From the IMG/VR virus record IMGVR_UViG_3300025815_000031, positions 1 through 38,662 of that record: a DNA stretch of 38,662 nucleotides; one strand, written 5' to 3'. How positions within the stretch are numbered: the stretch's first letter is position 1; the number at the start of each line of letters is the position of its first letter. Positions 32,092 through 38,552 of the stretch are shown one piece after another. Origin of the DNA: a virus. Below the pieces are notes generated by a model. That model ran no database searches and had not been told where the DNA came from. It worked only from the letters and a program-made list of their open reading frames with translations. A program made the translations under genes and the position numbers.

Positions 32092-32454
32092 TTAAGCGCT
32101 TTGTGCTTGGGTGTCGATGATATTGTCACCAAGACCAGCATCACGTAACTTTTCCAGCATAGATACCATGATGGTTGCTTGCGCCTGAGTGCGATCTAGG
32201 AACTCGCTAGCACGCTCTGGAGAGATCGTATGGACCGAACCATTCGGTTCTACGTAGCGCCAGCTTCCATCGGGTTGTGGGTCCCCCTGGAGGGCAAGAC
32301 GCTCGGAGTTATGGACATACCTGAACTCAACGTTGTGGTAGTCCTTAAGACCATCTTGTCCTGTCCATGTGGCACCAAGGTTGTACCGTGCATCCTGATC
32401 GGCAAATGCATGGAACTCAGGGACGAGATGCTTGAAAGCAGCAAAGATTTGCAT
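32092..32454 (-). CDS. Unknown 120-aa protein
   Basis: Begins MQIFAAFKHLVPEFHAFADQ and contains YHNVEFRYVHNSERLAL and QPDGSWRYVEPNGSVHTISP, a beta-rich centre, then a helix with a Gln/Ala end. The start codon is inside a 31-bp exact repeat also found at the tRNA end, and a hairpin element precedes it. No family recognised. Confidence 0.65.
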   Translation of the reverse strand: MQIFAAFKHLVPEFHAFADQDARYNLGATWTGQDGLKDYHNVEFRYVHNSERLALQGDPQPDGSWRYVEPNGSVHTISPERASEFLDRTQAQATIMVSMLEKLRDAGLGDNIIDTQAQSA

Positions 32455-32479
32455 GGTTCTAAATTGAGTTTGGGTTGGT
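32449..32479 (-). repeat. 31-bp direct repeat, copy 1 (leader plus start codon)
   Basis: Identical over 31 bases to 32871-32901. On the minus strand it reads ACCAACCCAAACTCAAT, then TTAGAACCATGCAA. Here its ATG is the start of the gene at 32454. Confidence 0.95.
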
Positions 32480-32482
32480 GGC

Positions 32483-32510
32483 CTGGGACTTACATCTTAA
32501 GAATGCCCAG
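32483..32510 (-). promoter_or_regulatory. Hairpin element, copy 1 of 6
   Basis: Outer stem CTGGG/CCCAG; 5' loop CAT; inner TCTTAAGA; 3' loop TGTAAGT. It starts five bases after the stop of the gene at 32515 and precedes the leader of the gene at 32454. Confidence 0.75.
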
Positions 32511-32514
32511 CTAA

Positions 32515-32811
32515 TCAGTAATAATATCTTTTATTCTCAAGACCAGGTTTTGGCACTTCAATAATTTGACCGTCATCAGCAATCATTGGAATAACATCAT
32601 TCATATACTCTTGTAAAAATTGTTGATAAGTGTCTGGCTCAGCAAACACTTCAGCTGCACCTGGATAGCCAAGATCACTATCTTCTAATGCACCATATAC
32701 AGATCGAATAACTTGGTCGTTTTTTAACAAACCAAGCACTTCTTCATCAGACAAAGCTTTACCTTTATTTAAAGCTTGCTTTGTGCGTTGAAAGTAAAGA
32801 CGATTTTGCAT
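32515..32811 (-). CDS. Unknown acidic 98-aa protein
   Basis: Starts MQNRLYFQRTKQALNKG (a Met two codons upstream is possible). Contains YGALEDSDLGYPGAAEVF and YMNDVIPMIADDG; the DxDLGY segment is also seen in the protein at 35966. Followed closely by a hairpin element. Function unknown. Confidence 0.6.
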   Translation of the reverse strand: MQNRLYFQRTKQALNKGKALSDEEVLGLLKNDQVIRSVYGALEDSDLGYPGAAEVFAEPDTYQQFLQEYMNDVIPMIADDGQIIEVPKPGLENKRYYY

Positions 32812-32870
32812 ATACAAAAACCATTTTTTACTAGTGTAAACGAAGTAAATAGTTACTACCCGAGGTGAGA

Positions 32871-32901
32871 TTGCATGGTTCTAAATTGAGTTTGGGTTGG
32901 T
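32871..32901 (-). repeat. 31-bp direct repeat, copy 2 (at the tRNA 3' end)
   Basis: Exact second copy of 32449-32479. Its first bases ACCA are the discriminator base and CCA end of the tRNA. Its ATG at 32876 opens only MQSHLG before a stop, so this start is vestigial. Confidence 0.95.
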
Positions 32902-32974
32902 AGCCGACCCCGGATTCGAACCGGGACTTGGCGGAGCTTAAATCCGCTGCCTCTGCCAATTGGGCTAGTCGGCC
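32901..32974 (-). tRNA. tRNA with UAA anticodon (Leu by codon), encoded CCA
   Basis: A full cloverleaf is visible: acceptor GGCCGAC/GTCGGCT (first pair G-U), D-stem GCC/GGC with a GG-containing loop, anticodon stem GCGGA/TCCGC with loop TTTAAGC (anticodon TAA, codon UUA), and T-arm CCCGG-TTCGAAT-CCGGG. The discriminator is A and the CCA end is encoded (32898-32900). The variable loop is only five bases (CAAGT), unlike the long arm of normal bacterial tRNA-Leu, so its aminoacylation identity is open. The first ten bases overlap the upstream gene. Confidence 0.93.
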
Positions 32975-33183
32975 TCACTTGGACTTACCTCTACATCAAT
33001 TGATGTGGAGTGCCAAGTATGATCTTGAGGTAACGGTTCAGTGCCGTACTCCCATGTGTCGTAGTCATCCTCATTGCGAGGATCTTCTTCGATCAAGATG
33101 TACTGAGGTGAGTTGCCATGGATGTACTCACCAATGTTGGCCATGGCCATGGCAAGTAGTTGGTCATCGGTGTAGTCAGTCAT
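32965..33183 (-). CDS. Acidic 72-aa protein ending inside the tRNA
   Basis: MTDYTDDQLLAMAMANIGEY leads an acidic protein (IEEDPRNEDDYDTWEYG). The TAG stop is formed by tRNA bases 8-10. Its 3' end also contains a hairpin element (32978-33017). The start lies only a few bases from the preceding terminator T-tract. Confidence 0.65.
   Translation of the reverse strand: MTDYTDDQLLAMAMANIGEYIHGNSPQYILIEEDPRNEDDYDTWEYGTEPLPQDHTWHSTSIDVEVSPSEAD
32978..33017 (-). promoter_or_regulatory. Hairpin element, copy 2 of 6, before the tRNA
   Basis: Outer stem CTTGG/CCAAG, 5' loop CA, inner CTC/GAG and CATCAATTGATG, 3' loop GTAAGT. It lies three bases upstream of the tRNA 5' end, inside coding sequence of the gene at 32965, and could define the tRNA 5' processing boundary. 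Confidence 0.65.
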
Positions 33184-33186
33184 AGG

Positions 33187-33221
33187 TAAAAACCAGCCCT
33201 AGTATCGAGGCTAAGGCTGGT
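33187..33221 (-). terminator. Terminator after PcfJ-like gene, abutting next gene
   Basis: ACCAGCCTTAG pairs with CTAGGGCTGGT (11 bp, one T-G) around CCTCGATA, followed by TTTTTA. It lies 13 bases past the stop at 33235, and the ATG at 33183 follows three bases after the T-tract. The same unusual geometry occurs at 32044-32069. Confidence 0.85.
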
Positions 33222-33234
33222 AAACCGTGTGGGT

Positions 33235-34968
33235 TCAGGCAGATTGTAGCTGCTTCTCTCGTTGTTGCAAGACCTCACGGAAAGCTTCTGTGTAAGCTTC
33301 ACGTTGCTCTTCCGTGAGACGCTGGTTAGCAACACCAGCAATCTGCTTGACGGACATCATACCCATATCAACCACCAGTTGGATGGTAAAGGTAGGCTTA
33401 CCATCAATCATGCATAGCACAATGAAGTGCTTACGCTTCTTGATGTCATCGGCATAGTGCGATGCAGAACCGACGCAGTTGCGTACGGCTTGGCCCCACA
33501 TAGCCAACTGATGTGTGTCAACAGGCTGGAAGAATGACCAGGTTTTACCATTGCGTGTAACTCTGATAGGTTCAGGAAATAAATCTTGAAGCAAGGATTC
33601 GTTGGGATTTTGGATCTTCCAGGACTCAGCTTGCACGTAGTCATGGAACTCACTAAGGCGCCAACGCTTTGGTGGTGCAAGTTCTCCACGATGGTTAAGG
33701 ATACGGATTGCCATGGAGAATGTGTCATTCAGCTCATGGAATCCATACCGTGCATAACCAACATCAGAGTCAATCCATGATGTTTTGGAATCCTGTTCTT
33801 CAACATACTTATACATGATCTTGAAGAGTGATGCAACAGGCATGTGTTCACGCAACCAATCAATCAGTATGGTTTTGTCAGCATCGATAGTGCGCACACG
33901 AACTTGATGAAGCTTAATAGAAAGAAGTTCCTTGTAATGAGTCTGGTAATGATCAAGCGGGCAATCAGGCCAGATGTTGTTAATCCAATCAATGGCATTA
34001 ATAACCTGGAGGAATGTAGACCAGGCTTGCCTAATTGGTTTCTGGCGATTGTTATCTGGATCGTTATAAGTTCTTGTGCATTCGTCAAGATGTATTTGTA
34101 AAAGTTTCTTAATAGCAGGCTTGGAAATGATGCGTTCAACACTAACCAAGGTGCAATAAGTGCCTGATGTATACACCCTCTCCATCTGATTGAACTTTTT
34201 AGCAGCATTAATTAAGTTATCAATAGTCAGACCATCGTTCTTATCTAGATACTTAGACATACCGCCAGGTATCTCTGCTGCATCAAAGATGTTCTCGCAA
34301 CGGATGCGATCAAATAATCCACGGGAATCTTCCCATGTGGGAATGTTTTGACGTAGGCTTTTCTCAAATGCTTCAACAGCATTGTCTCTGATCTGATAAC
34401 CTTTCTGGCAATAAAGATTTCCTGCTCGCCATTGGTAATGTTGATAGCCATGCTCAGCTTTACCAATGATGTTTTCCTTGGTGATATTCATTGAGTAAGT
34501 AAAGGTCTGGACACCACGACCACCTTCGTGCTCGATGCACTTGTCCTTGCTGTTCCAAATCCAGTTAGGTGCCACCTTTTTAGCAGCTGCTGTGTTCTTG
34601 AAGGCATAGGCATGGCCATAAACATACTCATCTTCTTGCTGCTTGGGAGGTAGCCACGCTGCGTACCACACCTGTTCGTAGTGATACAAGATGGCAATGA
34701 CTTTGAGGCGAGCTTGCGGAGTTGCTACGTCCACAGGCGTGGTAAATACTTTGTAGCGATCAGGTGCCTTCTGCTGGTTGATGTGATCAATCGCAGCCTG
34801 CTGATCTGACTCACGCACCACATTGTGTGGTATGAGGTGAGGGATGTTACCCAGTGGATACTTAGCTTTCTTGGTAGTCTTAGGCTTGGCCTGTTGAGCC
34901 AGCGCCTTCAGTGCTGGATCGTAGGCAAGGAGTTCGGTTTGGAGGTTGGAAGGTAATTGGAACTGCAT
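33235..34968 (-). CDS. PcfJ-like protein
   Basis: A 577-residue protein. Its C-terminal third matches the PcfJ-like pattern: PVDTHQLAMWGQAVRNCVGS, HFIVLCMIDGKPTFTIQL and VKQIAGVANQRLTEEQ. PcfJ-like proteins are widespread in phages and conjugative elements; their activity is not established. The N-terminal part is Lys/Ala-rich with no known domain. Leader: TACCCACTCAATTCA directly before ATG, with a pseudoknot 22 bases upstream. Confidence 0.78.
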   Translation of the reverse strand: MQFQLPSNLQTELLAYDPALKALAQQAKPKTTKKAKYPLGNIPHLIPHNVVRESDQQAAIDHINQQKAPDRYKVFTTPVDVATPQARLKVIAILYHYEQVWYAAWLPPKQQEDEYVYGHAYAFKNTAAAKKVAPNWIWNSKDKCIEHEGGRGVQTFTYSMNITKENIIGKAEHGYQHYQWRAGNLYCQKGYQIRDNAVEAFEKSLRQNIPTWEDSRGLFDRIRCENIFDAAEIPGGMSKYLDKNDGLTIDNLINAAKKFNQMERVYTSGTYCTLVSVERIISKPAIKKLLQIHLDECTRTYNDPDNNRQKPIRQAWSTFLQVINAIDWINNIWPDCPLDHYQTHYKELLSIKLHQVRVRTIDADKTILIDWLREHMPVASLFKIMYKYVEEQDSKTSWIDSDVGYARYGFHELNDTFSMAIRILNHRGELAPPKRWRLSEFHDYVQAESWKIQNPNESLLQDLFPEPIRVTRNGKTWSFFQPVDTHQLAMWGQAVRNCVGSASHYADDIKKRKHFIVLCMIDGKPTFTIQLVVDMGMMSVKQIAGVANQRLTEEQREAYTEAFREVLQQREKQLQSA

Positions 34969-34990
34969 TGAATTGAGTGGGTAAGTGGAA

Positions 34991-35018
34991 TGGACAGTTT
35001 AACGTCATGTCCAGGACG
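34991..35018 (-). promoter_or_regulatory. Pseudoknot element, copy 5 of 5
   Basis: CGTC pairs with GACG around CTGGACAT. Loop TGGACA pairs perfectly with TGTCCA after TTAAAC: six pairs unlike in sequence to those of the 23259 copy, a clear compensatory change. Sits six bases past the stop at 35024. Confidence 0.82.
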
Positions 35019-35023
35019 GTGGA

Positions 35024-35176
35024 TCAGTACTGGTCTTGGTACTGTTCGATGGTGTATGTACCAGTCGGTGTCATGACTGGCATTCGCTTTGCAAAGCCAG
35101 TAGCTAGATAAACACGACCTTTGGGACCACGCAGCACAAAGTACCAGCGCTTAAATTCAAGAGAGAATCCAATCAT
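35024..35176 (-). CDS. 50-aa basic beta-rich protein
   Basis: MIGFSLEFKRWYFVLRGPKG, then RVYLATGFAKRMPVMTPTGT: short, basic and beta-strand-like. Start overlaps the upstream stop (ATGA). Ends just before the pseudoknot leader of the PcfJ-like gene. Function unknown. Confidence 0.6.
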   Translation of the reverse strand: MIGFSLEFKRWYFVLRGPKGRVYLATGFAKRMPVMTPTGTYTIEQYQDQY

Positions 35177-35424
35177 TCGATGTCATCCTTGTCTAGTAGT
35201 TGCCATTGAGGATCGAGCTGATCAAGATAGGCACAGAAGCCATCTTCATCAAGAGGGATTGGTTCCTCTGGATCCAGCTCAATAGTTGTTTGACACAATG
35301 CAGGAGCCCACTCATCAGGCTCGAAGTGAGTTGCGCGATAAACGAGGCGCATCTCGTCAACAATTGCTGTGATTTTGACATGGGTGTCAGATACGATTGT
35401 TTCTTCGATTGAAAGTACAGTCAT
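35173..35424 (-). CDS. Acidic 83-aa protein
   Basis: MTVLSIEETIVSDTHVKITA starts a beta-then-acidic protein (IELDPEEPIPLDEDGFCAYL). Coupled at both ends: its ATG overlaps the previous TGA and its TGA overlaps the next ATG. No known domain. Confidence 0.65.
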   Translation of the reverse strand: MTVLSIEETIVSDTHVKITAIVDEMRLVYRATHFEPDEWAPALCQTTIELDPEEPIPLDEDGFCAYLDQLDPQWQLLDKDDIE

Positions 35425-35591
35425 CAGTCGCACTCCACGAATTGACACTTGGGTGAGATGTAGCAACGATACCTAGTCCAGGCACGAGCAGTTTCCCACT
35501 CGCCATGGAAAGTATCTTCTTTAAGGATTGCTTTCTCTGCGCGTTTGACAGCGCAGGAAGCAATGTTGATACGATCAAACAAATTAAGCAT
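35424..35591 (-). CDS. 55-aa cysteine-containing protein
   Basis: MLNLFDRINIASCAVKRAEK continues to a basic Trp/Tyr-rich end with three further cysteines (YRCYISPKCQFVECD). The leader is AACCCAACTCCAACTTC before ATC-ATG, the G-poor type. A hairpin element lies 26 bases upstream. Stop overlaps the next start. Confidence 0.6.
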   Translation of the reverse strand: MLNLFDRINIASCAVKRAEKAILKEDTFHGEWETARAWTRYRCYISPKCQFVECD

Positions 35592-35617
35592 GATTGAAGT
35601 TGGAGTTGGGTTAGAAG

Positions 35618-35644
35618 CTGGGACTTACACCAAAGGACGCCCAG
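35618..35644 (-). promoter_or_regulatory. Hairpin element, copy 3 of 6
   Basis: CTGGG/CCCAG outer stem, 5' loop CGT, minimal inner CC-TTT-GG, 3' loop TGTAAGT. Shortest copy, yet loop bases are kept. Lies between the stop at 35670 and the start at 35591. Confidence 0.72.
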
Positions 35645-35669
35645 TGCTTTAGATTCTCTTAATGTTTGG

Positions 35670-35870
35670 TTAGAACAACTTGATGTTCCGTTTGCTCAGG
35701 CCTGTGCCAGGAATACTAATTGATCCACGGACACCTGAGCCACGGGCATTAATAGTTAGTTGTAAAGGACCAAGCTTGATTGATTTGGAATACGATTGAA
35801 CACCATGTTCTGTAACATTGAATCCAGCAATGGTTCTATCAAAGTTGATAGAGGATTTAGGTTTAGTCAT
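35670..35870 (-). CDS. DUF4236-like small protein
   Basis: Sixty-six residues with SKSIKLGPLQLTINARGSG followed by SISIPGTGLSKRN. This resembles DUF4236 proteins, which contain a KSIKLGP...PGTGLSY pattern. Function of the family is unknown. Basic and beta-rich. It follows a strong terminator after 46 bases. Confidence 0.65.
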   Translation of the reverse strand: MTKPKSSINFDRTIAGFNVTEHGVQSYSKSIKLGPLQLTINARGSGVRGSISIPGTGLSKRNIKLF

Positions 35871-35913
35871 GATTAAAGATTATTTGAAGGTTGATTAAAG
35901 TAATTAACTAATA

Positions 35914-35951
35914 CTAATAAAAGATTCCCCCCTGGTTCTCTTCCAGGGGGG
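35914..35951 (-). terminator. Strong Rho-independent terminator
   Basis: CCCCCCTGG pairs with CCAGGGGGG around AAGAGAA, followed by AATCTTTTATT on the minus strand. It lies 15 bases past the stop at 35966. Confidence 0.88.
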
Positions 35952-35965
35952 TTTGGGGGGAAAGC

Positions 35966-36301
35966 TTACGACCAGGCGATACGCTTGTCCTCGACTGCTT
36001 TCTTATACATCTCATCCATTGTCATAGGTGGTTCACTACCGTAACCAAGATCTGCATCACTTGGTTCGTAGTCCAGTTCATTCTCTAGCATTGGAATGAT
36101 CTCATCATCAAGCATTGCATACATACTTGGTGTGAGATATTGATCCATCTCATGCCTCTTGGATTCACGTGCAATGACATCTTTCAGTAATGTCAAAGCT
36201 TGTTGAACGTAGTAGTACTCGTTCTTGACCCAGTTCACTTTAAGAACTGCGTCAGAGGGAACGCCAGTGGGAGGCACTTCAGGAAAGCTTTGGTTGGTCA
36301 T
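35966..36301 (-). CDS. Unknown 111-aa acidic protein
   Basis: Starts MTNQSFPEVPPTGVPSDAVL with helical middle (YYYVQQALTLLKDVIARES) and acidic Met-rich end (DADLGYGSEPPMTMDEMY). The EIIPMLENE and DxDLGY pieces are shared loosely with the protein at 32515, suggesting distant paralogy. Bounded by a hairpin element upstream and a terminator downstream. Confidence 0.65.
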   Translation of the reverse strand: MTNQSFPEVPPTGVPSDAVLKVNWVKNEYYYVQQALTLLKDVIARESKRHEMDQYLTPSMYAMLDDEIIPMLENELDYEPSDADLGYGSEPPMTMDEMYKKAVEDKRIAWS

Positions 36302-36330
36302 GAGCTGTGTTGTAAAAGGTGTACGGTTAG

Positions 36331-36381
36331 CATGGGACTTATACCACAGATGAGAATAGTTCTCAATAGTGGATGCCCATG
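36331..36381 (-). promoter_or_regulatory. Hairpin element, copy 4 of 6
   Basis: CATGGG/CCCATG outer stem, 5' loop CAT, inner CCAC/GTGG capped by a TGAGAA-CTA-TTCTCA hairpin, 3' loop TATAAGT. It starts four bases after the stop at 36385. Its core is almost identical to copy 5 at 37398. Confidence 0.8.
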
Positions 36382-36384
36382 CAT

Positions 36385-36612
36385 TTACTCAGGCTTCTTT
36401 AAGATCCACCTGGTGTAATGCCCAGCAGTTCGATCGACTGCTACTAGTTTATGCTCCTCCAGTCGTTGGATAGCAATCATGTAATACTTCAACCTACTTG
36501 GGTTTGGAAGCATCGGTACATAACATGGTTCGTCAGGACGTTTCTTCATGTGATTTAAGTAATACATGTAGAGATTACGTTGGTTGACAGTTAATCCAAT
36601 TGGAGGTTGCAT
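36385..36612 (-). CDS. Winged-helix-like small protein
   Basis: MQPPIGLTVNQRNLYMYYLN begins 16 bases after the previous stop. The order LYMYYLNHMKKRPDE, SRLKYYMIAIQRLEEHKLV, then a beta-wing-like VDRTAGHYTRWIL recalls winged-helix repressor N-domains. DNA binding is inferred. Seventy-five residues. Confidence 0.6.
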   Translation of the reverse strand: MQPPIGLTVNQRNLYMYYLNHMKKRPDEPCYVPMLPNPSRLKYYMIAIQRLEEHKLVAVDRTAGHYTRWILKKPE

Positions 36613-36628
36613 AAGTTCAGTTGATTGG

Positions 36629-37000
36629 TTAGATGAGTCCGAGCAACGATAGCCAGCTGTCTGGATGATCGGGTTCAACCTCATCATCACCTGGTGTAAA
36701 GCATACGCTATCCATTGTCCATTCCTCTATGTCTTCGTTGCACGGGATGTCGTACCATCCTTGGAGCGCATCCTTGTCTTCTTGCGAGTAGTTACCTCCG
36801 GTTGGTTTCCAGTAGAGCCTAAGGGTTCCTTTGGTGCGGTACACTGATCCGTTCTTGGGGTAGGTGTCAAGCTTTCCGAGGACAACTCCTTTGGGATCGA
36901 AGTTGATTTCAGCTTGGTATTGCTCAAGGCATTCATCGCCTTCGAACGGTTCGTAACCAGTGATTGCTTTGGCGATTGCTTGGGTTTCTGGATGAAGCAT
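36629..37000 (-). CDS. Unknown 123-aa acidic protein
   Basis: MLHPETQAIAKAITGYEPFE begins a well-formed acidic protein with GTLRLYWKPTGGNYSQED and TMDSVCFTPGDDEVEPD. It shares DNA with another frame at 36727-37095. Composition supports this frame as the main coding one. No family known. Confidence 0.65.
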   Translation of the reverse strand: MLHPETQAIAKAITGYEPFEGDECLEQYQAEINFDPKGVVLGKLDTYPKNGSVYRTKGTLRLYWKPTGGNYSQEDKDALQGWYDIPCNEDIEEWTMDSVCFTPGDDEVEPDHPDSWLSLLGLI

Positions 37001-37095
37001 GACAGTAGTTCCGTGATGATGAGTGAAGTGATTGCAATAAAAAGGATGACGATGTTACCGTCATCCCAACATTGTTTCCAAAGTGATTGATTCAT
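36727..37095 (-). CDS. Membrane peptide overlapping the next gene in another frame
   Basis: The ATG overlaps the upstream TGA (ATGA). MNQSLWKQCWDDGNIVILFI continues through a transmembrane helix, all before the next gene starts. The remaining 90 residues overlap 36629-37000 and are Ser/Thr/Lys-rich, so they may be either a real embedded tail or chance. An 8-bp hairpin GGATGACG/CGTCATCC is coded inside (about 37046-37068). Confidence 0.4.
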   Translation of the reverse strand: MNQSLWKQCWDDGNIVILFIAITSLIITELLSCFIQKPKQSPKQSLVTNRSKAMNALSNTKLKSTSIPKELSSESLTPTPRTDQCTAPKEPLGSTGNQPEVTTRKKTRMRSKDGTTSRATKT

Positions 37096-37367
37096 TTGGT
37101 TGCTTCCCAATCTTCGCAACGCTTGGTGTAGTAGATGTCAAAGTTTGGGTGAAGCTTACGACAGATATCTTCTGCTTGTAATGCAGTATCTGCCATGTAA
37201 CCCAATGCATCATTCCTCATCTGGAGTGTGTCATAACCGACGCACACCCAATGGATTTCAGTAAGCTCTGCTTCACGCATTGCTTCTTCTAGTTCGAATG
37301 CATAATCTGCCATGGTATCCAAGAGATCAGCATTGCGTTGTGCATCGATGAAGGTAGGGTCCTGCAT
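37092..37367 (-). CDS. Unknown 91-aa acidic helical protein
   Basis: MQDPTFIDAQRNADLLDTMA, then DYAFELEEAMREAELTEIHW: acidic helices with several aromatic residues (DIYYTKRCEDW). Leader CTACCTCAATTCAAACC directly before ATG, the motif of this region, with a hairpin element 31 bases upstream. Confidence 0.65.
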   Translation of the reverse strand: MQDPTFIDAQRNADLLDTMADYAFELEEAMREAELTEIHWVCVGYDTLQMRNDALGYMADTALQAEDICRKLHPNFDIYYTKRCEDWEATK

Positions 37368-37397
37368 GGTTTGAATTGAGGTAGGGTTTGGGAAGGA

Positions 37398-37446
37398 CTA
37401 GGACTTACACCACAGATGAGAATAGTTCTCAATAGTGGATGCCTAG
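37398..37446 (-). promoter_or_regulatory. Hairpin element, copy 5 of 6
   Basis: CTAGG/CCTAG outer stem (compensatory to CTGGG/CCCAG), 5' loop CAT, inner CCAC/GTGG topped by TGAGAA/TTCTCA, 3' loop TGTAAGT. It lies between the stop at 37516 and the start at 37367. Confidence 0.82.
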
Positions 37447-37515
37447 TGTTTGCTGAAGCATTGGCATGTATTGGCAAATCTTACGTGCCAACCAATACTT
37501 CAGATATAACAGGGT

Positions 37516-38007
37516 TTAGATCGTAATATTATTCCATGAAATACCACGATCAATATTGGATATGGAAGTGCTTGTCACTCCATAAATCTTAGCCAGTTCT
37601 TTGAAACCTTCATTGCGAGTTGTATACTCATTCATGAATGCTTCATCGGCTAATAGTTGTTTGATTTCACGCACCTCCTTACTTCCTAACTTGGCATTAC
37701 CATTGACATAATGCCTTGATCTAGCCATACGTTTCCGTAGGCTAATGTTTGGAGGATCTACCTTAACAGCCTTTGCCTGTGGTGTCGGCTGTTTCGGGGG
37801 TGTGGGGGAAGAGAACAAGTCGAGTAGATCAACCTTCTCAACAGGTTGCTTACTTTGATTACTAACTGATTTCAACAGTTGGAAACCTAGGGTAACTGAT
37901 TGCCCATCCTTTGTAACTGAGATGGTCACCTTGTTATCCCTGGTAATCACACTGACGTGATCTGGTTTTGAAACATCAACTTGACTGAGTGCTTCCATGG
38001 GATGCAT
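37516..38007 (-). CDS. HTH regulator-like protein
   Basis: A 163-residue protein with a beta-rich N-terminus (HVSVITRDNKVTISVTKDG), a proline-rich linker near 70-85 and a C-terminal helix-turn-helix: SKEVREIKQLLADEAF then FKELAKIYGVTSTSISNIDR. The last part resembles HTH segments used in phage homing enzymes and repressors. A DNA-binding regulator is likely. Upstream sits a 12-bp hairpin. Confidence 0.7.
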   Translation of the reverse strand: MHPMEALSQVDVSKPDHVSVITRDNKVTISVTKDGQSVTLGFQLLKSVSNQSKQPVEKVDLLDLFSSPTPPKQPTPQAKAVKVDPPNISLRKRMARSRHYVNGNAKLGSKEVREIKQLLADEAFMNEYTTRNEGFKELAKIYGVTSTSISNIDRGISWNNITI

Positions 38008-38023
38008 TAGGTGCGTTGAAATA

Positions 38024-38059
38024 ATACCTAGTACTCATCCAAAGACAAGTACTAGGTAT
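38024..38059 (-). promoter_or_regulatory. 12-bp perfect hairpin in a leader
   Basis: ATACCTAGTACT pairs perfectly with AGTACTAGGTAT around a 12-base loop, followed on the minus strand by TATTTC only. It lies 23 bases past the stop at 38083 and 16 bases before the ATG at 38007. It may be a weak terminator, an operator or an RNA processing hairpin. Confidence 0.6.
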
Positions 38060-38082
38060 AGAGTCTGAGGTCAGGTCACACG

Positions 38083-38310
38083 CTACATATGTGGTGTGAA
38101 CCTAGGATCAGCGAGGAGTTGTGCAATGGAGCACGCATCCTCCTCTACTTCTTCCTTGGTGCATCCCTCCCATTCATCCGATTGATTCTCGATGACCTGG
38201 CAACCCAGGTCTTCGAGTTGACATGCGAACATACCAAAGCTTTGTGCTTCGCCATAAACATGCCAAATACCGGAACCGTAGTCAGAGATTAACGCTACGT
38301 GAATGCTCAT
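38083..38310 (-). CDS. Unknown 75-aa acidic protein
   Basis: MSIHVALISDYGSGIWHVYG begins an acidic protein (ENQSDEWEGCTKEEVEEDAC) with four cysteines. Its start overlaps the upstream membrane gene by 29 bases. No known family. Confidence 0.65.
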   Translation of the reverse strand: MSIHVALISDYGSGIWHVYGEAQSFGMFACQLEDLGCQVIENQSDEWEGCTKEEVEEDACSIAQLLADPRFTPHM

Positions 38311-38497
38311 GATGACAAGAGGTTTGTTGTGGGTTGAGCTTGGTGATATCAATACCTAACAATGCAGGTACTGATAGTGCAGCAAGGATGATTGCAAGTG
38401 CTGCCACTGCAATATCATCCCATCGAGTCTTATTGGACTCGGGATAAGAATCAATGGTCACGAAGAGGTTCCTCCGCAGGCGTACGATCTGTTTCAT
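38282..38497 (-). CDS. Small membrane protein, 71 aa
   Basis: MKQIVRLRRNLFVTIDSYPE, then a hydrophobic helix (DDIAVAALAIILAALSVPAL) and a His-rich polar tail (TSCHHEHSRS). Leader ATCACCTCA directly before ATG, no Shine-Dalgarno, with a hairpin element 18 bases upstream. Confidence 0.6.
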   Translation of the reverse strand: MKQIVRLRRNLFVTIDSYPESNKTRWDDIAVAALAIILAALSVPALLGIDITKLNPQQTSCHHEHSRSVNL

Positions 38498-38515
38498 TGA
38501 GGTGATTTGGAATCC

Positions 38516-38552
38516 CTGGGACTTACACCACACATGTTATGTGGATGCCCAG
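38516..38552 (-). promoter_or_regulatory. Hairpin element, copy 6 of 6
   Basis: CTGGG/CCCAG outer stem, 5' loop CAT, inner CCACA/TGTGG, 3' loop TGTAAGT. Starts three bases after the stop of the gene cut by the right edge. Confidence 0.8.

Follow-up and report, generated by a model that had tools for sequence, protein, structure and literature searches.

A family of small hairpins with a conserved asymmetric internal loop at gene and tRNA boundaries of uncultured aquatic phages

Six hairpin elements in an environmental phage genome

The window, i.e., the whole stretch of DNA analysed here (a 38,662-b virus record of IMG/VR), has no close match among phage isolates, and the DNA polymerase and the primase that it encodes share 70% and 55% identity, respectively, with those of cyanophage S-EIV1. 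Its minus strand carries six hairpins, listed here with the leader and the tRNA that adjoin two of them:

38516-38552, minus strand: element 1, CTGGG-CAT-CCACATAACATGTGTGG-TGTAAGT-CCCAG; past a stop codon and 5' of the leader of the small gene that comes next; covariance model E 1.4e-7
37397-37447, minus strand: element 2, ACTAGG-CAT-(29 nt inner)-TGTAAGT-CCTAGT; 5' of the 91-aa gene 37092-37367
36330-36382, minus strand: element 3, GCATGGG-CAT-(29 nt inner)-TATAAGT-CCCATGC; 2 nt past the stop of 36385-36690 and 5' of the 111-aa gene 35966-36301
35618-35644, minus strand: element 4, CTGGG-CGT-CCTTTGG-TGTAAGT-CCCAG; 5' of the 55-aa gene 35424-35591
32976-33019, minus strand: element 5, TACTTGG-CAC-TCCACATCAATTGATGTAGA-GGTAAGT-CCAAGTG; inside the last codons of the 72-aa ORF 32965-33183, with the loop ending 8 nt 5' of the tRNA
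32898-32974, minus strand: tRNA with UAA anticodon, directly 3' of element 5
32483-32510, minus strand: element 6, CTGGG-CAT-TCTTAAGA-TGTAAGT-CCCAG; 4 nt past the stop of 32515-32817 and 28 nt 5' of the ATG of 32092-32454
32455-32482, minus strand: leader between element 6 and the ATG, 28 nt, G-poor, without a Shine-Dalgarno motif (gccaccaacccaaactcaatttagaacc); typical of the family in S-EIV1-like phages

A covariance model trained on 35 elements, a few of them from the window, matched exactly these six in the window (E = 3e-8 to 1.3e-5), with the next best match at E = 4.3. All six minus-strand hairpins of a preliminary description of this DNA were therefore recovered at E of 1.3e-5 or below, and their placement was also as described there: five stand past a stop codon and ahead of the next gene's leader, and the one at 32978 (element 5) lies in a coding end just 5' of the tRNA. 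The loop sequences given in that description apply in part, as its 3' loop TGTAAGT is found in four elements but reads TATAAGT at 36331 (element 3) and GGTAAGT, opposite CAC, at 32978, and its 5' loop, "usually CAT", has the exceptions CGT at 35618 and CAC at 32978. Its claim that all inner stems differ had to be withdrawn: the elements at 36331 and 37398 (elements 3 and 2) have one common inner hairpin (CCACTATTGAGAACTATTCTCATCTGTGG).

Other features were noted in the same part of the window. An extra hairpin with a GTAAG loop (GTATTGGTTGGCACGTAAGATTTGCCAATAC) lies just 5' of element 2 (37465-37500, minus strand) and is not a member of the family according to the covariance model. The tRNA at 32898-32974 combines its UAA anticodon with a short variable loop (about 5 nt, by eye), unlike an ordinary class II tRNA-Leu, and related phages have an 86-nt tRNA-Leu at the matching site. 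A 577-aa protein encoded at 33235-34968 (minus strand) is kept in S-EIV1-like phages and weakly matches phrog_16315, which is of unknown function; towards the C-terminus it is, we presume, reminiscent of PcfJ-like proteins.

Structure and covariation of the element

At the core of the element is a conserved 2x6 internal loop (5' CA / 3' GUAAGY), defined in this way because the third 5' loop base, if not U, pairs with the first 3' loop base (86 of 96 cases) and, if U, nearly always forms a U.U. The minimum free energy fold, which pairs CA with UG and leaves UAAGU as a bulge, was not adopted, since in the variants CAC/GGUAAGU and CAG/CGUAAGC it is the third base of the 5' side that pairs with the first of the 3' side. 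The outer stem (about 5-7 bp) accepts any sequence outside its two innermost pairs, which are G-C in every row of both alignments; the 3' loop tolerates UAUAAGU, GGUAAGU, CGUAAGC and similar variants; and the inner hairpin is interchangeable, with caps from 7 to >40 nt. Elements are 26-60 nt long with a median of 9 bp, and 126 of 293 do not exceed 30 nt.

Covariation was measured in sequences found by scanning for GGCATCC-N-GGTGTAAGTCC plus a following base other than C, with the other stem positions free. In this set, unselected for the pairs concerned, the next two outward pairs were complementary in 86 and 80 of the 90 sequences, where base composition would give 43 and 48, which upholds the covariation of outer stems proposed in the preliminary description. 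Among 37 of these sequences, both sides had changed in 64 cells, compared to 26.9 after shuffling, and the covariation score was 0.391 versus 0.110. The same description had named an outcome that would tell against it, namely that homologous phages lose the bases of the loop; this was not observed, and the loop is the conserved part. The 4-nt caps (n = 76) include 25 GNRA, eight C(UNCG)G and one GNYA, and the GNRA and C(UNCG)G caps therefore point to RNA; G.U and A.C were equally frequent in the outer stem (11 vs 11) and numbered 13 vs 5 in the inner stem. The initial view of an RNA element with a fixed asymmetric internal loop is thereby strengthened.

Some inner hairpins form recurrent subfamilies that are common to several phages (e.g., CTGTAATCGCTGTGCACATAGCACAGAAAGATACAG and CACCGACGTAAGTACGGTG; loci L009:5667-5720, L084:1093-1146, L126:728-785, L082, L092, and L097), in some cases with a nested GTAAGT.

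Distribution of the family

Two pattern scans of IMG/VR, one of them with a fixed outer stem, each returned at least 119 stretches. Among the matches listed from the fixed-outer-stem scan, the gap between the two halves was strongly peaked (8 nt in 67/152) and the gap sequences form inner stems, unlike chance matches. A few large-contig matches of the first pattern (L018, L079, and L108) probably arose by chance. A structural scanner identified 293 distinct elements in 231 fetched loci, a count that does not equal evolutionary events because related sequences are not independent. The same scanner found none in reversed or motif-permuted controls, a generous control because the loci were seeded by pattern (favouring the TGGG/CCCA and CATCC/GGTG forms); many of the elements match no seed. 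The six hairpins are part of a large, uncatalogued RNA family, far beyond chance: Rfam 15 had nothing at the elements even at permissive thresholds (E up to 5), its sole match in the window being the tRNA, and no description of such an element was found in the literature.

The carriers are many uncultured aquatic phages, including relatives of a cyanobacterial phage. The strict pattern had no match in 84,980 bacterial and archaeal genomes, and BLAST searches with two element sequences gave no real match in 50,697 phage isolates. S-EIV1, reached via its proteins, is the only isolate found with the element, and it carries two strong copies and one weak candidate. The element was not found in S-CBWM1 and S-TIM5, the nearest isolates of a capsid-associated group, or in Leptolyngbya phage Lsp-JY19, and a search through the phrog_4652 gene for the host of a GC-rich group found no relative. 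Some records contain psbA; therefore, at least two groups infect cyanobacteria. In sum, this is a widespread phage RNA element outside Rfam; its core is sharply delimited, and its placement follows unusually clear rules.

Position relative to genes and tRNAs

In mRNAs, the elements lie on the sense strand, a median of 5 nt past the upstream stop codon, and the next start is usually 20-40 nt 3' of the element. Measured over 144 distinct leaders, with gene starts derived from ORFs and records that may be fragments, the distance from the 3' arm to the next ATG has an interquartile range of 26-32 nt (about 29 nt) and is sharp in S-EIV1-like phages. These leaders are G-poor (11% G), and 13 of the 144 contain a Shine-Dalgarno-like motif. 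A long record may carry as many as ten elements, most of them within about 10 kb and on a single strand barring occasional weak matches. Gene order is largely conserved among the phages, and the elements hold the same junctions with changed caps: the two strong elements of S-EIV1 occupy the junctions of 36331 and 37398 in the window, with the same genes 3' and wholly different inner hairpins, and orthologues of the 55-aa gene 35424-35591 retain the element in 31/33 cases. Stop-codon readthrough was rejected because cap lengths are not multiples of three, and a terminator because no U-run follows the element.

The genes 3' of the elements are unrelated to one another (major capsid protein, SSB, primase/helicase, exonuclease, GP88, and many small hypotheticals). 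The preliminary description had listed a ligand sensor among its options, and a small aptamer-like internal loop 5' of genes would suit a riboswitch; nevertheless, we rate this the least likely of all readings considered because the downstream genes, together with the tRNAs, are not functionally coherent, and also count against it the presence of as many as ten copies within a single gene cluster and the lack of an expression platform. Similarly, the cyanophage cis-RNAs manA, wcaG, and PhotoRC-II are structured RNAs 5' of aquatic-phage genes (PMC2864571), but they precede functionally coherent genes and are in Rfam, neither of which holds for the elements described here.

The strongest clue to function is the spacing at tRNAs. 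Among the 52 tRNAs of the fetched loci with enough 5' sequence, 32 are preceded by an element, its loop ending 8, 9, 10 or 11 nt from the mature 5' end, and 25 of these 32 elements match neither seed pattern. The tRNAs concerned include Leu-UAA (several types), Leu-UAG, Asn-GUU, and Thr-AGU. At the site of element 5, which is the end of a conserved small ORF, different phages have different tRNAs and the element is kept.

This spacing bears on two further readings. In the first, the hairpin would stay uncut at the boundary, and a phage or host protein, or the ribosome, would bind the CA/GUAAGY loop and insulate the neighbouring units, shield a 5' end from RNase E/J, or tune initiation. The tight distance to AUG, the G-poor leaders without Shine-Dalgarno motifs, the combination of conserved loop and free cap that is typical of protein-binding hairpins, and the link to the stop codon in one group (see below) all agree with it. 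On the other hand, tRNAs need no translation control, yet 32/52 carry the element 8-11 nt upstream, and a persisting hairpin would be expected to hamper leader binding by RNase P. We therefore hold an uncut hairpin to be doubtful, while placing it first among the alternatives that remain, ahead of a self-cleaving RNA and a DNA hairpin, in that order.

The second, a hairpin acting as DNA (an N4-type hairpin promoter or an attC-like site of single-strand recombination), would be consistent with the location at gene junctions, with the weakness of the preference for G.U over A.C, and with fixed distances to tRNA starts and AUGs, as if a start site lay a few bases 3'. It is nonetheless unlikely, and last of the three: the excess of GNRA over GNYA and the C(UNCG)G caps are RNA preferences, cap length varies from 7 to >40 nt, and cassette shuffling was rejected because gene order is largely stable. 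In addition, an N4-like giant virion RNA polymerase is absent from the window, as its largest ORF has 869 aa.

Non-coding units carry the element as well. Non-coding arrays of AT-rich relatives (L181:2066-3640, L206:143-890, L219, L240, L242, L244, and L245) show the element in alternation with a second hairpin, which is 17 nt long (G/C-CTGT-ACTTA-ACAG-G/C). The distance from the second hairpin to the element is 27-29 nt start to start, whereas the return spacer is variable (about 80-130 nt). The second hairpin also occurs about 40 nt 5' of real start codons.

A candidate processing signal of polycistronic phage RNA

Because tRNAs, unrelated mRNAs and non-coding units share the element, with a fixed 3' distance and a free cap, we favour a cis-acting RNA boundary signal, most likely a cut site of polycistronic phage RNA, at a probability of about one half; we infer the cut, its place and its agent. 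Two independent contexts with fixed spacing to a downstream functional RNA (tRNA or AUG) argue for such a signal, as do the replacement of inner hairpins at kept junctions, the unrelated downstream genes and the alternation with the second hairpin in arrays. Against a boundary cut stands S-CBWM1, a close relative in the capsid gene that lacks the element. Cutting of mRNA and tRNA had been one hypothesis of the preliminary description, and it has gained from the 32/52 tRNAs at 8-11 nt, the roughly 29 nt to AUG and the outer-stem covariation, with the cut itself still putative.

The recognised unit would consist of the outer stem, the 2x6 loop (5' C-A; 3' G-U-A-A-G-U/C), a closing pair (N-N' or U.U) and a capping hairpin that is interchangeable. 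A nuclease with sequence specificity, either of the host or phage-encoded, may read the internal loop and cut in or near UAAGU, detaching the downstream RNA from the upstream cistron at the stop codon of the latter. The tRNA product would be a precursor with a leader of about 10 nt, suited to RNase P, and the mRNA product would begin with an unstructured 5' leader of about 30-35 nt. If the element is a cleavage site, it would indicate how, in a large group of environmental phages, tRNAs, mRNAs, and perhaps small RNAs are released from long early transcripts, and would point to a new nuclease or ribozyme whose recognition site is very small and portable. Direct tests are possible in the cultured cyanophage S-EIV1.

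Very short hairpins can be specific cleavage signals that separate RNA units, as in Cas6/Csy4-type sites; unlike at those sites, there is no CRISPR array here, the outer stem is free in sequence and the conserved part is the internal loop. Imperfect hairpins just past stop codons are also known in many copies as enterobacterial REP elements, a likeness that ends with the single orientation relative to genes, the covarying stem and the fixed spacing to tRNA or AUG of the present elements, which were seen only in phages.

The search for a candidate nuclease in 32 element-bearing phage records did not find an RNase III domain (a cyanobacterial control was detected), and in a search for RegB the control itself was silent. 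That a nuclease partner was not found, that the downstream genes are unrelated, and that about 12 conserved nucleotides surround one internal loop while outer stem and cap are free would also suit a self-cleaving ribozyme, in which two short helices and one CA/GUAAGY loop (about 26-30 nt) would cut their own RNA without protein. We consider this unlikely, although it precedes the DNA hairpin in our ranking, given the tolerance of the 3' loop for variants such as UAUAAGU, GGUAAGU, and CGUAAGC and the lack of an Rfam ribozyme match even at E up to 5. If true, the ribozyme would be among the smallest natural ones, and phages would trim their own mRNAs, tRNAs, and non-coding arrays with no protein.

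The logic of T7 RNase III sites, to which the preliminary description had likened the elements, holds for the arrangement and fails for the duplex. The early T7 sites (R1.1 and relatives) lie a short way 5' of the next start codon, as do the elements here, and share with them the intercistronic position, the sense strand, an asymmetric internal loop and several copies per genome; moreover, the hosts possess RNase III. However, the elements do not have the long, near-continuous duplex (about two turns) of T7-type sites, and strict sequence conservation in a single-stranded part is not what determines an RNase III site. They also differ in their 2x6 loop of conserved sequence, their interchangeable cap and their occurrence 5' of tRNAs. 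Processing by RNase III of this type is very improbable because the elements have a median of 9 bp in 26-60 nt (126/293 do not exceed 30 nt), compared to about 60 nt, with a 4/5 loop, in the bacterial RNase III model site R1.1 of T7 (PMC6121014).

Elements tied to an upstream stop codon

In the phrog_4652 group, the element begins 4 nt past the stop codon of the upstream gene, or the UAA of its own loop acts as the stop codon. Here, the upstream stop sets the position of the element, and there is no gene at a constant distance 3' of it, an arrangement that fits a boundary and not specifically a 5'-end function. A tract that is dense in GGC (as many as 24 GGC per 200 b) and several hundred bases long lies 3' of the element behind the phrog_4652 gene at several loci (L100:9780-10220, L015, L029, L088, and L196), and the L100 tract is broken by other hairpins of the form CGGAG...CTTCGG...TCCC.
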